Assembly (NCBI GenBank): GCA_910574865.1
Contig: CAJTDN010000004.1
Coordinates: forward strand, 62,001 to 126,000
Reading direction: 5' to 3'
DNA length: 64,000 nucleotides
From: Lachnospiraceae bacterium
GTDB taxonomy: Bacteria; Bacillota; Clostridia; Lachnospirales; Lachnospiraceae
In this document: positions 2,534 through 41,873 of the stretch, in pieces
Layout of the letters: each line of letters opens with the position of its first letter
Numbering within the stretch: position 1 is the stretch's first letter
Program-made: the position numbers and the translations under genes
Notes under the pieces: model-generated
Seen by the model: only the letters and a program-made list of their open reading frames with translations
What the model was told of the DNA's origin: nothing
The model's database searches: none

Positions 2534-3907
2534 TTATGATAGCGCGTCCAGCGTGTTTTTACCAATTCGCCTTGCAAATTCCTGATAGTCGGCGATTTCT
2601 TTCCCGTCAAAGCCGGCGAAAAGGGCTTTTTCATAATCCCTTCGCGCGTCCTCGATGTCCTTGAGGATGGAATCGGCGGCTTCGAGCAGTCGGTAAACTT
2701 GTGTCTTGTCTGTTTTTTCCGCCTTGTCCGTTTTTTCTGCCCGTTCCGTTTTTTCTGTTTTTCCCGCCGCTCCCTTGCCGGCTGGCTCGGAAGTGGTAAC
2801 GAGGTTTTTGACCGCCAGTTTCCCCAGGGAAAGAATCAGGGCGTTGCGGGAGATGCCGAGGCAGTCGGCGATTTCCTTTTGGGAGACGGCATGGTCGGTT
2901 TCCGACAAGTACAAAATCAATAACGTGTCGTTCAGGGTCAGGTTATTCTTTAAGGCGACCGTCTCCAGGTAACGTTCCAGGAGCTTCCGTCCCCGATAGG
3001 CCCGAATAAGCATCCCGTCCCCGGCGATGGATTCCGGGCGCAGGCTCAAACGCTCGTCCCCCAGCTTGTGCGTGCCGGGCAAGGGAACGGGCAACACGAA
3101 GCCGTCGCTGGCACTGTCCATAAAATAGCGGTAGACCTGGTGGCGGTTGGCCTCGTAGTCCTCCTCCGTCAGTACTTGTTTGTAAAAATTATTATAATAT
3201 TCAAATACCATCAATTTCATTTTCACGGTATTGCTGATGCTCATGCCCTGACTGGCAAGGGAACCCTTCGTCCTCACATAGTAATAAATCGGCACTTGCA
3301 GCGCGTAAAATACCTTCGCATGGCGGAAATATTCCAGGTTGAACATGAAGTCCTCGCACCAGCTGATTTCCGTGTTCATGCGCAGGTGGTGCTCTTCCAC
3401 GATATCACGGCGGAAGAGCTTGTTCCAGAGTACGCCGTAATAGAAGTCGGCCGGATTTTCCACCATGTGGGCGGCAAACGTTTCCAACGTCATCACGCCG
3501 TCCGCCTCGATGTCGCCCTTGTGTGCCAGATGTTCGCCGACGACGCGGTAAAAATCAGAGATGACCATGTCGCAATGGTAGTTTTCGGCGGCGCGGACCA
3601 ACAGCTTGGTGGCATCCGGCGTGATCCAGTCGTCACTATCCAAAAACTGCAGGTACTTGCCCGCCGCGTGGCCGATGGCGATGTTGCGGGTGTCGGAAAC
3701 ACCGGTGTTTTCCTTGTGGATGACACGGACGCGTGCGTCCTCTTTTGCATATTCGTCGCAAATCTGCGGGGAAGCGTCCTTGCTTCCGTCGTTGACCAGG
3801 ATTAACTCGAAATCCGTATATTCCTGGTTCAAAATACTGTCCACACAGCGGTTTAAATACTTTTCCGCATTATATATGGGGACAATGATACTTACCGTAG
3901 GGTTCAT
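2534..3907 (-). CDS. Family 2 glycosyltransferase with C-terminal MarR-like winged-helix domain
   Basis: 457 residues. The first 240 or so form a GT-A glycosyltransferase: the start motif SIIVPIYNAEKYL, the nucleotide-binding ILVNDGSKD and the metal-binding LDSDDW (residues 89-94). It probably transfers a sugar to a surface polysaccharide or glycolipid. From about residue 320 the chain changes to a MarR-like helix-turn-helix (LNDTLLILYLSETD, QKEIADCLGISRNALILSL). The expected wing carries a Lys/Thr/Glu repeat (about 383-403), and a long helix and dimerisation-like tail follow. Start ATG has AAGGAGGA upstream. A hairpin repeat lies in its leader, and its promoter is divergent from cysK. The fusion sits in one unbroken frame. 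Acceptor sugar and DNA target are unknown. Confidence 0.8.
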   Translation of the reverse strand: MNPTVSIIVPIYNAEKYLNRCVDSILNQEYTDFELILVNDGSKDASPQICDEYAKEDARVRVIHKENTGVSDTRNIAIGHAAGKYLQFLDSDDWITPDATKLLVRAAENYHCDMVISDFYRVVGEHLAHKGDIEADGVMTLETFAAHMVENPADFYYGVLWNKLFRRDIVEEHHLRMNTEISWCEDFMFNLEYFRHAKVFYALQVPIYYYVRTKGSLASQGMSISNTVKMKLMVFEYYNNFYKQVLTEEDYEANRHQVYRYFMDSASDGFVLPVPLPGTHKLGDERLSLRPESIAGDGMLIRAYRGRKLLERYLETVALKNNLTLNDTLLILYLSETDHAVSQKEIADCLGISRNALILSLGKLAVKNLVTTSEPAGKGAAGKTEKTERAEKTDKAEKTDKTQVYRLLEAADSILKDIEDARRDYEKALFAGFDGKEIADYQEFARRIGKNTLDALS

Positions 3908-3940
3908 GTGTGTTTCCTCCTTACTATGGGCTTGTCATGA

Positions 3941-3974
3941 GCACTTAGCACCTGTATTTTGGGTGCTTACGTGC
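3941..3974 (-). repeat. Leader hairpin, diverged copy of the intergenic repeat family
   Basis: A hairpin with outer arms GCAC/GTGC and inner arms AGCACC/GGTGCT around an AT-rich loop. It matches the hairpin of the 21221-21580 tandem repeat in layout, loop sequence and flanks, but a base pair has changed on both sides (A-T for G-C at the base of the inner stem). It lies in the 5' leader of the glycosyltransferase, about 35 bases before its start codon; sequence to about 4020 also resembles the rest of the repeat unit. Confidence 0.6.
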
Positions 3975-4044
3975 GATACACGTCGTCGCCGTCAGTGAGG
4001 TTTTTTCGAACTTACCAGACGACGCATGGTGCAACTCTCACACA

Positions 4045-17850: not shown

Positions 17851-17871
17851 TCGAAAGCAATTGGCATTGAA

Positions 17872-17947
17872 CGCTTGGCGAGCGCGGGACGCGCGAGTCT
17901 AGCGAGAAAGCCCATCCCGAAACTTGACAAGGTGCTTCGAGCCTAGT
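17872..17947. repeat. Two diverged copies of the CTTGGCGAG...GAGCCTAG repeat
   Basis: 17872-17906 and 17922-17947 carry the pattern CTTGgC-gAG-(n)-GAGcCTAG that also occurs in each 101-bp unit at 21221-21580 and once at 22501-22530. The 464-base gap between ntpD and the next gene (17851-18314) otherwise holds the operon terminator and no convincing ORF. Confidence 0.5.
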
Positions 17948-18063
17948 TGAGTGGATGTTACGATTTGAGCCATAGGCGAAATTGAACTTAGTGCGAGGTT
18001 GTTCTTTGAGATTAGCAAGGCCATGGGCCGAGCTTGGCGAAAAGAACCTCCTCCCCCTCAAGA

Positions 18064-20540: not shown

Positions 20541-21197
20541 TCAATTGCCGCTGTTCCAGTCCACGTCATAATTTTTCTCGACGGTGAACCTCGTCAGCAT
20601 CTTGTCCTCGGAACCAAATATCAGGCTATAGTCGTATTCCTTGGTCAAATGGGAAAACCACATGTTGTCGTCGCCGGTGAAGTCCGGGAACATTTCCCCG
20701 GCCTTTTCCCGTGAAATCTCGTTGACCGGCACCCCGTTTAGGGAAATCTGCGCGTTGGCCTCCGGATTGTCATAATCCAGGTAAAATTCCAGGTGGGCGA
20801 TTACCGCGTCGCCCATGCGCCTGGTGGCTCGCGTCGTCACCACGGAAATATGGGTGAAAATCGAGTCGGTAATCCAGATGCTGGCCCCGCTGTAGTAGGA
20901 GTTTGGCTCCATTTCCATTTCCGGGTCGATTTCATACTGGGTATACTGGTTGTTCTCGTCCAACTCCGACACCGTAACTTTGAAACCCGCGTCCAGGAGT
21001 GCTTGCACGGTCGTCTCGCCGACGCGAATCTCGGTTTCTCCGATGGAAATCGGGTAAAGCACGTCCGCCGAGCCCTCCGGTGCTTCATCTTGTTTGGAAT
21101 CCGCGTTTTCGTCGTCATTCGAGCCGCAAGCGGCGAGGGAAAGACAAAGGATTAAAATCAGGGCGAGGGATAACCCCTTTTTCAGACACTTTTTCAT
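20541..21197 (-). CDS. Lipoprotein of unknown function
   Basis: 218 residues with a clear lipoprotein signal: MKKCLKKG, a hydrophobic core, then LAAC with the lipidated cysteine at position 24, then an Asp/Glu/Ser linker to about residue 45. The remaining domain is mixed alpha/beta, acidic, with DFTGDDNMWFSHLTKEYDYS near the end. I do not recognise the family. AAGGAGGAC precedes the ATG. Upstream lie three and a half 101-bp hairpin repeats, the nearest starting 24 bases before the start codon. Confidence 0.75.
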   Translation of the reverse strand: MKKCLKKGLSLALILILCLSLAACGSNDDENADSKQDEAPEGSADVLYPISIGETEIRVGETTVQALLDAGFKVTVSELDENNQYTQYEIDPEMEMEPNSYYSGASIWITDSIFTHISVVTTRATRRMGDAVIAHLEFYLDYDNPEANAQISLNGVPVNEISREKAGEMFPDFTGDDNMWFSHLTKEYDYSLIFGSEDKMLTRFTVEKNYDVDWNSGN

Positions 21198-21220
21198 AAA
21201 GCAACGTCCTCCTTACAATG

Positions 21221-21580
21221 AGCACTTGGCACTCGTATTTTGAGTGCCTACGTGCGAATGTAGTTACCTGCAACTTGGCGAGGTGTTTTCGAGCCTAGTG
21301 CAGCGTAACTTCCTTGCTACAAGCACTTGGCACTCGTATTTTGAGTGCCTACGTGCGAATGTAGTTACCTGCAACTTGGCGAGGTGTTTTCGAGCCTAGT
21401 GCAGTGCAACTTCCTTGCTACAAGCACTTGGCACTCGTATTTTGAGTGCCTACGTGCGAATGTAGTTACCTGCAACTTGGCGAGGTATTTTCGAGCCTAG
21501 TGCAGTGCAACTTCCTTGCTACAAGCACTTGGCACTCGTATTTTGAGTGCCTACGTGCGAATGTGGTTAACTGCAACTTC
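21221..21580 (-). repeat. 101-bp tandem repeat with internal hairpins (about 3.6 copies)
   Basis: Copies begin at 21221, 21322, 21423 and 21524, the last cut short about 10 bases before the thiT stop codon. Each unit has a hairpin with outer arms GCAC/GTGC and inner arms GGCACTC/GAGTGCC around an AT-rich loop, then a segment CTTGGCGAGGTGTTTTCGAG and CCTAGTGCAG. Units differ at only a few bases, so the amplification is recent. It fills the space between thiT and the lipoprotein gene, in the leader direction of the latter. No ORF is likely here. Confidence 0.9.
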
Positions 21581-21586
21581 TTTATA

Positions 21587-22156
21587 TCAGGCTTTCGTCT
21601 GTGCCTTTACGAGTTGCATGGCTTTCATGACCGGGGGTAGCGAAATAATAATTAAGGTAATGATGCCTTCCACTCCCAGATACGAACCTTGGTATGCGGC
21701 CGAATACGCGAGCGGATGCATCCCCTTTGGGGCATAGTCGGCGAAAAAGATGACGCCGGAAAGCGTGGAACAGACGAAACGTCCCAGTACGCCTATGACG
21801 TAGCCGATTTGTAATCCCCATTTCTTGTCATGGAAAAACCCGGATAACCCGAGTGCCCCGAATGCCAGTGGGTAGTCCAGAAGCACCTGCGGGATGCTCA
21901 AAATGTACGGGTCGATAAAAAACTGTAACAAGCCGTAGGCGACACCGGTCAATAGTCCGTATTTGGGGCCGAACCAGTATCCAATCAGGCAAATAAACAG
22001 CATGGACATCAAAGTAATAGAACCGCCCATCGGCATCTCCCATAGCTTAATGTAGGAGGTGACGGTCGCGAGGGCGATTGCCGCCGCCGAAAATACAAGT
22101 TTTTTTACCGCGGACATGGAAGTGCCGCGGGTCGTGCTAATCGTGGTCATATTCAT
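21587..22156 (-). CDS. thiT: Thiamine ECF transporter S component
   Basis: 189 residues with six membrane helices. This is the thiamine-binding S component that works with a shared ECF module encoded elsewhere. Start ATG at 22156 has AAGGAAGGAG directly upstream and follows the riboswitch; longer upstream frames would run through the aptamer. ThiT-like segments are MSMLFICLIGYWFGPKYG, LLQFFIDPYILSIPQVLLDY and FFADYAPKG. Control by TPP is expected from the riboswitch. The last tandem-repeat copy reaches almost to its stop codon. Confidence 0.92.
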   Translation of the reverse strand: MNMTTISTTRGTSMSAVKKLVFSAAAIALATVTSYIKLWEMPMGGSITLMSMLFICLIGYWFGPKYGLLTGVAYGLLQFFIDPYILSIPQVLLDYPLAFGALGLSGFFHDKKWGLQIGYVIGVLGRFVCSTLSGVIFFADYAPKGMHPLAYSAAYQGSYLGVEGIITLIIISLPPVMKAMQLVKAQTKA

Positions 22157-22160
22157 TTTC

Positions 22161-22373
22161 TCCTTCCTTACGCCGGCATTATCCGGATCAAGTTCCGTGC
22201 GACTTTGCGAGTGCCACCCGCGGTAACTGTCAAGGCCGTGGAAGCCTTTCACCTGCCGCTTGCAAAAACAAAGTCGTACAAGGGTCTGTGTAAATACACA
22301 TCTCAGCCATGTGTGGAATTGCCCGAATGGGTCTGCCAATGTGGCATGTCCTGGCAATCCTTAGCGCCCCAAT
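22161..22373 (-). promoter_or_regulatory. TPP riboswitch with an inserted structured domain
   Basis: On the minus strand the conserved pieces appear in order: GGGGCGC, a long P3 arm, GGCTGAGA (about 22309-22316), ACCCTT (22280-22285), then GAACTTGATCCGGATAATGC and CGGCGTAAGG, ending before the thiT ribosome site. Between ACCCTT and GAACTTGATC, where a few bases are usual, there are about 80 bases closed by a perfect 8-bp stem CGACTTTG/CAAAGTCG (22200-22207, 22269-22276). Confidence 0.85.
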
Positions 22374-22379
22374 GAAAGT

Positions 22380-22408
22380 ATAATAAGTTTTTTGCGATGA
22401 TTTGTCAA
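22380..22408 (-). promoter_or_regulatory. Promoter of the TPP riboswitch-thiT transcript
   Basis: On the minus strand: TTGACA (22403-22408), 17-base spacer, TATTAT (22380-22385). Transcription would start around 22373, at the left edge of the aptamer. Confidence 0.7.
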
Positions 22409-22486
22409 TAATAAGTTTCAAAATAACTGCTATTGTCCTTTTGTCATAAAAAAATAATTTGTTCTAACACATGACGCGACATTGAT

Positions 22487-22530
22487 GGTATAATATGAAC
22501 ACTTGGCGAGGTGTTCCGCGAGCTTAGTGG
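22487..22530 (+). promoter_or_regulatory. Extended -10 promoter followed by a repeat-family copy
   Basis: TGGTATAAT at 22487? to 22494 (TATAAT 22489-22494 with TG one base upstream) makes an extended -10; no good -35 is seen. Immediately after, 22501-22530 is one copy of the CTTGGCGAGGTG...GAGCTTAGTGG repeat element, here in the leader of the GH43-like gene. Confidence 0.5.
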
Positions 22531-22573
22531 TTATGGTACAATAAAAAGTGGAAGAGAAAGGGAGGAGAAAAGC

Positions 22574-38325: not shown

Positions 38326-38427
38326 TCTCTTATTCAGAGCAGTGGAGATACAAAGGATCTGTGAAACTGCGGCAACCCCTTGGAAAAGGAAGGTGCCAGC
38401 CTGAGCGAGTAATCGAACAATAAGGGG
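38326..38427 (+). promoter_or_regulatory. SAM-I (S-box) riboswitch
   Basis: Conserved S-box pieces in order: CTTATTCAGAGCAGTGGAG, GAAACTGCGGCAACC, GGTGCCAGCCTG, GCGAGTAATCGAACAATAAG. The P1 stem is CTTATT (38329-38334) with AATAAG (38419-38424). A terminator follows at 38445, so high SAM should stop transcription before metK. Confidence 0.93.
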
Positions 38428-40953: not shown

Positions 40954-41638
40954 ACGTATTTTTATCGTGGAAGATGAAGAGAGCATCGCGGATTTGGAAA
41001 AGGACTACCTGGAACTGAGCGGTTTCGAGGTCGAGGTGGCCAACGACGGGTCCGTGGGCTTAAACCGGGCGCTGAGTGAGGATTTCGACTTGATGATTCT
41101 CGACCTGATGCTGCCGGGGGTGGACGGCTTTGAAATCTGCCGCCAAGTGCGTGACAGCAAAAACGTGCCGATTATCATGGTGTCTGCCAAGAAGGACGAC
41201 ATTGACAAGATTCGCGGCTTGGGGCTCGGGGCGGACGACTACATGACCAAGCCTTTCAGCCCGAGCGAGCTGGTGGCGCGCGTGAAGGCGCACCTGGCCA
41301 GATATGAGCGGCTGATTGGCAGCAGCGTGGAGGAGAACGAGATTATTGAGATTCGCGGATTGAAGATTGACACCACCGCGAGGCGCGTGTGGGTCAACGG
41401 GGAGGAACGGTCGTTCACGACGAAGGAGTTCGACCTGCTCACGTTCCTGGCGGGACATCCGAACCATGTGTATACGAAGGAAGAACTGTTCCGCGAAATC
41501 TGGGACATGGAATCCATCGGGGACATTGCCACCGTGACCGTGCACATTAAGAAAATCCGTGAGAAGGTGGAATACGATACCTCGCACCCGCAGTACATCG
41601 AGACGATTTGGGGCGTGGGATACCGGTTCAAGGTGTGA
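40946..41638 (+). CDS. OmpR/VanR-type response regulator
   Basis: 230 residues. Receiver with acidic pair E9/D10, phospho-acceptor D53 (MILDLMLPGVDG) and lysine in DDYMTKPFSP. The winged helix (about 133-230) ends in TIWGVGYRFKV. The ribosome site AGGAGGTACC lies inside the kinase gene and the genes overlap by 8 bases. The gene order, kinase first, is opposite to the pair at 24604-27808. Confidence 0.94.
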   Translation: MSKRIFIVEDEESIADLEKDYLELSGFEVEVANDGSVGLNRALSEDFDLMILDLMLPGVDGFEICRQVRDSKNVPIIMVSAKKDDIDKIRGLGLGADDYMTKPFSPSELVARVKAHLARYERLIGSSVEENEIIEIRGLKIDTTARRVWVNGEERSFTTKEFDLLTFLAGHPNHVYTKEELFREIWDMESIGDIATVTVHIKKIREKVEYDTSHPQYIETIWGVGYRFKV

Positions 41639-41643
41639 TGCCG

Positions 41644-41746
41644 GGGGCAAAAAGTCATGCGGTTCATGCTTGCATGAGGACGCATGACTTTGAGCCCCGC
41701 CAAAACATGAGAATGTAGCCCGAGTAGGGCGGAATTCGAATGTTTT
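41644..41746 (+). other. Two large nested hairpins after the response regulator
   Basis: First hairpin 41644-41698: GGGGC/GCCCC outside, AAGTCATGCG/CGCATGACTT in the middle, TCATGC/GCATGA inside, two-base loop. Second hairpin 41702-41746: AAAACAT/ATGTTTT outside, GAAT/ATTC, then GCCC/GGGC. Neither has a T-run directly after. Further on, GCGGTTCGTGGGTGTCACGG (near 41777) is repeated with changes near 41830. Confidence 0.6.
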
Positions 41747-41873
41747 CAGAATCGCTTGAGCACGAAGTGCGCAGCGGTTCGTGGGTGTCACGGTGCGTGA
41801 CAATCTGGAGAGTGCGGAGTGAGCATGCGGTTCGCGGGCATCACGGCGAGCGGTTGGAAAGGATAAAGTTTTT

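Follow-up and report, generated by a model that had tools for sequence, protein, structure and literature searches.

A dispersed two-hairpin palindrome at Shine-Dalgarno sites in a Lachnospiraceae genome, probably a non-autonomous mobile element

What is a hairpin-bearing repeat of 101 bp doing in tandem directly in front of a gene, and does it belong to a mobile palindromic element or to a family of leader RNAs? The locus lies in a stretch of 64,000 nucleotides from a Lachnospiraceae bacterium, referred to here as the window. The original prediction described three complete units and part of a fourth, each with a nested hairpin (GCAC/GTGC outside, GGCACTC/GAGTGCC inside), and this description of the array is confirmed. 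Tandem Repeats Finder (TRF) returns a period of 101, 3.6 copies and 98% matches for 21221-21579, the three full units share 98, 99 and 100 of 101 bases in pairwise comparison, a covariance model aligns to three full units and a partial fourth, and the nested hairpin is present in every unit. Both genes flanking the array are on the minus strand, and the element precedes a gene start on that same strand (Table 1). The gene on the other side was called thiT in the initial reading of the sequence; in front of it, at 22148-22381, there are TPP riboswitch-like matches of 37.3 and 23.2 bits, below the gathering score of 54.3, which together look like a single aptamer with a long insert in an arm.

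Table 1. Positions in the window of the array, its parts and the other copies of the element
Feature	Position	Strand	Basis
Array unit nearest the gene: H2, linker and H1, ending in the Shine-Dalgarno sequence of the lipoprotein-like gene	21207..21313	-	128.8 bits, covariance model
Second full array unit	21314..21414	-	104.6 bits; TRF period 101
Third full array unit	21415..21515	-	105.0 bits, covariance model
Partial fourth array unit: H1 and linker, H2 cut down	21517..21579	-	46.4 bits, model positions 41-100 at 21517-21576; TRF array end 21579; sequence
Hairpin H1 of the first unit; recurs at +101, +202 and +303	21222..21255	-	sequence
Hairpin H2 of the first unit, core CTAGGCTCG..ACCTCGCCAAG	21263..21309	-	sequence; fold; paired changes
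Shine-Dalgarno sequence AAGGAGG, directly after the element	21208..21214	-	sequence
Gene downstream of the array, lipoprotein-like by its first residues (..LAACGS); start 9 nt beyond the model end	20544..21197	-	sequence
Diverged copy before gene 2537-3907 (glycosyltransferase according to the initial reading)	3926..4032	-	60.8 bits; sequence
Diverged copy of another subfamily, no credible gene start there	17856..17961	-	40.6 bits; context
Lone hairpin of the same type between TGGTATAATA (22486-22495) and TGGTACAATA (22534-22543), plus-strand reading	22486..22543	-	sequence; pattern match in L001

Read on the minus strand, each unit runs from a left end, AAGGA, through a long hairpin H2 (core CTAGGCTCG-N-ACCTCGCCAAG) and the linker CTACATTC to a hairpin H1, GCAC GTA GGCACTC .. 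GAGTGCC AA GTGC. After H1 the last unit continues with TCATTGT, the Shine-Dalgarno (SD) sequence AAGGAGG and the start codon of the lipoprotein-like gene. The initial description captured H1 and missed the second, longer hairpin. The hairpin is indeed read in the sense direction before a ribosome site, here on the minus strand, but not at the proposed distance of 20-40 bases: the foot of the hairpin is 7 nt from the SD in the array and 18 nt from it in the 3926-4032 copy. Both stems are irregular, with an A.A mismatch in the H2 core and a GTA/AA loop in H1, and the tetranucleotides GTAG/GTAA occur within H1. By reading, the ends of the element (AAGGA.. and ..CATAG) are not inverted repeats.

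The stems show paired substitutions, the check that had been set for them. In alignment A1, which holds 32 of the 38 pattern matches (without L015, L016, L034, L038:72, L039 and L041), RNAalifold predicts 21 pairs, 13 of them with changes on both sides. Two further alignments, A2 with 17 copies and A3 with 18, between them take in 35 of these 38 matches, L041 and two array duplicates being left out. Under the two-hairpin structure 94.5% of the cells in A2 pair, 12 of 31 pairs show changes on both sides, and all seven apical pairs of H1 vary on both sides. The covariation score of A2 is 0.261 against 0.125 for shuffled alignments (500 shuffles, none as high), and versions in which the structure was slid along reach at most 0.076. 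A3, comprising a second class of H2 (ACTCC..GGAGT) and covering H2 and the linker helix only, scores 0.180 against 0.095, above all shuffles. One of the five covariation measures, the number of further pair types, behaves otherwise, at 18 against 23.2 in A2, below all shuffles, and 13 against 12.2 in A3, near the shuffled mean. Five units were folded; they are 3.1 to 4.7 standard deviations better than shuffled sequences, and the SD is left unpaired in them. In Rfam 15 the array has no match at the gathering score (whole window) or at E≤5 (around the array).

Does this covariation reflect a helix in RNA or in DNA? If it were RNA, read in the sense direction, the helix would be expected to tolerate G-U better than A-C. 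Among the six inner pairs of H1, counted over 57 distinct helices (copies with at least six of seven apical pairs classifiable, each distinct helix once), GT/TG and AC/CA each occur 11 times, so that neither strand is favoured; these counts, small as they are, give no support for a constraint at the RNA level. A raw excess of A-C (42 vs 27, 18 vs 8, 41 vs 12) had seemed to indicate the functional strand, a reading we rejected, as much of the excess can be traced to redundancy and to the first pair, at the edge of the stem.

Three other places in the window had been linked to the repeat, and all three belong to the family. The hairpin at 3941-3974 is real and forms part of a longer copy, with the paired change from G-C to A-T as stated; the 3′ flank of this copy, CAAGCCCATAGTAAGGAGG, resembles the end of an older copy. 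The fragment at 17872-17947 falls inside a diverged copy. This copy has the linker ATGGGCTTTC in common with four other diverged copies (L042, L222, L225 and L226); the flank 3′ of these five is TGCCAGTTGCT in two and a variant of it in the other three, and none of the five is at a credible gene start. At 22501-22530 the fragment proves to be a single hairpin of this kind, which lies upstream of the next gene on the plus strand; the sequences on its two sides both resemble extended −10 boxes. Copies from other genomes have this −10-like box at their flanks too, as found by a pattern search that itself demands the box and so provides no test of enrichment. Elsewhere in the window there are a Clostridiales-1 RNA (41636-41790, 114.6 bits) and a SAM riboswitch (38327-38426, 71 bits).

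The five copies on which the original prediction was based are a small part of the family. With one unit as query, BLAST finds 67 matches in the genome, and a covariance model built from 32 copies finds many more structured copies, at least 124 at E≤0.01, some of them partial; this count is a lower bound, 150 of 1260 candidates having been scored. The 124 matches group into 85 clusters. At E≤1e-4, 13 of 41 genomes contain matches, namely all 12 of the genus and one of the 29 others (G016, with two), and under stricter filters the genomes of the genus carry from 1 to 94 apiece. The exact core pattern is found in at least 118 stretches of the genome collection. Most of the 80 titles listed are Lachnospiraceae; the outlier among them, Dongia deserti, is probably a chance match. 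Carriage by plasmids or phages was considered and rejected, since one unit has no match at E≤1e-5 in either collection; the exact core pattern occurs in two stretches of the viral collection. Among the literature matches listed, no title or abstract opening describes this two-hairpin family.

Enrichment just upstream of start codons had also been proposed as a check, and it is seen in the genome. A strict test asks for an open reading frame (ORF) of 100 aa or more whose start codon lies 3-13 nt beyond the element; 54 of the 85 clusters pass it and 31 fail. On the outward side 3 of 85 pass, and among 20,000 random positions 12.2% do. For clusters of at least 80 bits, a start lies 3-13 or 17-27 nt on in 39 of 41. 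Relaxing the test to a start within 30 nt and an ORF of at least 50 aa raises the count to 70 of 85 clusters, with 16 of 85 on the other side, but this is weak evidence, since random positions pass at a rate of 40.2%. The same weakness applies to the stretches from the relatives G001 and G002, picked because copies lie in them, in which a start is found within 30 nt in 40 of 50 clusters and on the other side in 13 of 50 (random about 40%). The loci from the collection scan, mostly of other genera and with a few congener-like loci among them, show no placement bias: the scan gave 78 matches in 100 of 118 loci, and a start lies within 30 nt of 16 of the 78 on either side. Three copies, L218, L221 and L223, overlap the first 6-7 nt of one tRNA-Asp and two tRNA-Cys genes.

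The genes that follow the element have little in common. No Pfam family occurs in more than three of 64 downstream proteins (E≤1e-5), the 64 being 70 minus six judged to be spurious ORFs or doubtful sites (L037, window:17251-17841, L232, L230, L228 and L218). Ten downstream proteins were compared with NCBIfam, and valine-tRNA ligase (valS), DnaB helicase, proC and rmlD are among them; a gyrase/topoisomerase IV A-type subunit and an ABC permease are further examples. Such unrelated genes argue against a regulon or a riboswitch-like leader.

Five sites of the genome were queried in relatives, and at four of them there is a congener without the element and with a short gap in its place. The array of the window is missing in G001, where the flanks are 84-89% identical. 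The junction opposite the array reads ..TATAAGGAAGTAAGGAGG.. and retains AAGGAAG, the left end of the element, for which reason the G001 site may represent a loss rather than a site that was never filled. At L201:2950-3153 both units are missing in G002, and their place in G001 is taken by a lone H1 of the other type; L030:3887-4094 is missing in G002, with other sequence at that place in G001; L030:2599-2803 is present in G002 and missing in G001. The last of these shows one apparent paired change in H2 in G002, A-T to G-C, and both of its units differ together between this genome and G002. The fifth site, L201:8052-8158, is occupied in G001 by a different stretch of similar length, and G002 is unmatched beyond the upstream gene.

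Copies of the element are also found inside the hairpins of other copies, at YAAG (for example L034, L041, L039 and L038). In the aligned copies from this genome, G001 and G002, 17 end at YAAGT[G/T], the tail by which the nested class was set, and some of these (such as L034, L038, L039, L015 and L016) were read by eye in a host hairpin. Again by eye, a copy at L010:4789-5167 is interrupted by another long palindrome, so there may be other nested palindrome families in this genome besides the present one. Even copies with CAAGTGC as their target carry the left end AGGAA, and the few empty sites leave the exact junction base unfixed. Direct repeats at the left and right of 40 double-hairpin copies from the collection average 6.03 nt against 3.82 in shuffled sequence, an ambiguous excess in that arrays (L156, L166 and L176), or arrays cut short, would give it too. 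Nested copies such as L034 and L038 have no flanking direct repeats, and a clean target-site duplication is not seen.

The linker between the hairpins offers a clue to how the target might be chosen. One base of the linker comes to lie, in the fitted alignments, opposite the base that immediately follows the element; 165 of 176 aligned rows could be scored for this pair, the other 11 being gapped at the tested columns. The two bases are a Watson-Crick match in all 17 nested-type copies (shuffled mean 12.0), in 82 of 93 terminal copies with an SD-like tail (66.1) and in 106 of the 120 terminal copies that are not nested (75.3), figures that lean towards pairing as the alignments were fitted to the structure. 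The array-internal copies, aligned in the same way, match at chance (18 of 28, shuffled 17.5), and they are a useful control since the bases next to them belong to another unit and not to a chosen target. A selected RNA helix would give the same linker/target match in terminal copies. Complementarity between the linker and the right flank in the 40 collection copies is only slightly raised, at 3.55 against 3.18 shuffled (p=0.0055, the copies being related), and in the −10-type copies L148 and L151 the linker GGTATA lies opposite a flanking TATACC.

How does the element compare with known systems? REP and REPIN elements are described as short imperfect palindromes, present in high copy between genes and thought to be moved in trans by the transposase TnpA-REP, or RAYT (PMC8266576; PMC6006769). 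The present element resembles them as a high-copy dispersed palindrome with a stem mismatch and differs in having two unlike hairpins in a fixed order, mostly at SD sites. Nor does any Y1 transposase track its copy number. A search with the PF01797 model, from which a divergent enzyme could escape, found three partial matches in this genome, none in G002, which has 73 elements, and 11 in G008, which has six. Twelve of 24 matches were scanned as loci; 11 of the 12 have no element hairpin, and at the remaining one, L244, there is a fragment beside one copy. With counts that do not follow those of the element, and loci mostly empty of its hairpin, the Y1 transposase was rejected as the partner. 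One partial match, G000:C1:428639-428770, lies about 170 bp upstream of copy L020:3863-3971.

IS200/IS605 elements (IS608) and their miniatures have been described as carrying a hairpin close to each end and a short guide by which the target is recognized through pairing (PMC6006769). Here, too, hairpins lie near the ends, and the one target base formally compared matches a linker base in most terminal copies. By comparison with IS200/IS605, the paired target bases of our element lie 3′ of the hairpin and the linker 5′, on the same strand, and the Y1 search yielded no transposase to go with it. BOX elements of Streptococcus pneumoniae are reported to be modular dispersed stem-loop repeats, with middle units that occur in tandem and little connection to what the neighbouring genes do (PMC3049150), and to be over-represented between convergent genes (PMC3049150, Table 1). 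By description our element can be set beside BOX in each of the first respects, whereas it is found mostly at gene starts rather than between convergent genes. The working of the element may be REPIN-like or like that of an IS200/IS605 miniature. Membership in either group would be defined by a Y1 transposase, which is absent or partial where the copies are most numerous.

Taken together, dispersal, presence and absence between congeners, nesting and unrelated downstream genes, along with the lack of a G-U preference, favour a mobile palindrome, one half of the original prediction, over a leader RNA family, the other half. It is probable that the element is a non-autonomous, REPIN/MITE-like palindromic mobile element with a preference for SD sites. 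In the scheme that we envisage, an element of about 100 bp (left end AAGGA, H2, short linker, H1, then target) would insert directly 5′ of YAAGG, in practice the SD sequence, or alternatively 5′ of YAAG inside the hairpins of older copies, and local duplication after insertion would make tandem arrays such as 21221-21579. We further infer a fold that is active in single-stranded DNA, a part for the linker in the choice of target, and mobilization of the element by an enzyme supplied in trans. Insertion 5′ of YAAGG would give it a fixed orientation in the 5′ leader and leave the SD and the gene usable, and such a junction rule would explain the placement at gene starts without a regulatory role.

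A cis-regulatory leader RNA family, whose two hairpins would govern the translation or decay of each mRNA, possibly by way of a shared factor, would account for the fixed sense orientation and the position at the SD, for the strong paired changes and for an SD that stays unpaired in the five units folded. We consider it unlikely: the genes downstream are too diverse, copies are absent at orthologous genes of congeners, they nest in each other and abut tRNA genes, the array is unmatched in Rfam, and G-U is not preferred over A-C. An element beside an SD could nevertheless have a leader effect on individual genes. A related explanation, to which we give somewhat less credence still, is that a selfish element came first and was later recruited at many loci as a 5′ leader, so that its placement reflects survival and not targeting. 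Copies landing elsewhere could be lost, stems stay paired and arrays sit in leaders, all as this explanation would have it. Against it, the junctions of nested type are not at an SD, yet the linker base matches in every one of them, a point short of decisive in that these copies are mostly in a leader as well, 13-36 nt from the start where one was found. It is very improbable that the repeats arose and spread without transposition, by recombination or replication slippage alone. Slippage fits the near-identity of the array units and the joint differences of the two units at L030:2599 between this genome and G002, but it does not account for 85 separate clusters that mostly share one kind of junction.

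We raise as a speculation, with the odds against it, that Lachnospiraceae harbour a class of guide-programmed palindromes in which the linker between the hairpins pairs with the target, and whose subfamilies are aimed at the SD (YAAGGAGG), at extended −10 boxes (TGGTATAATA, opposite strand), at tRNA 5′ ends and at their own hairpins, all moved by a single-strand enzyme yet to be described. Whatever moves them, these dispersed palindromes lie exactly at the translation start signals of ordinary genes, some of which are likely to be essential, and they provide natural pairs of filled and empty sites for measuring the effect of a structured leader on expression. If it is true that the linker chooses the target, a miniature element would carry a naturally varied and readable targeting code.
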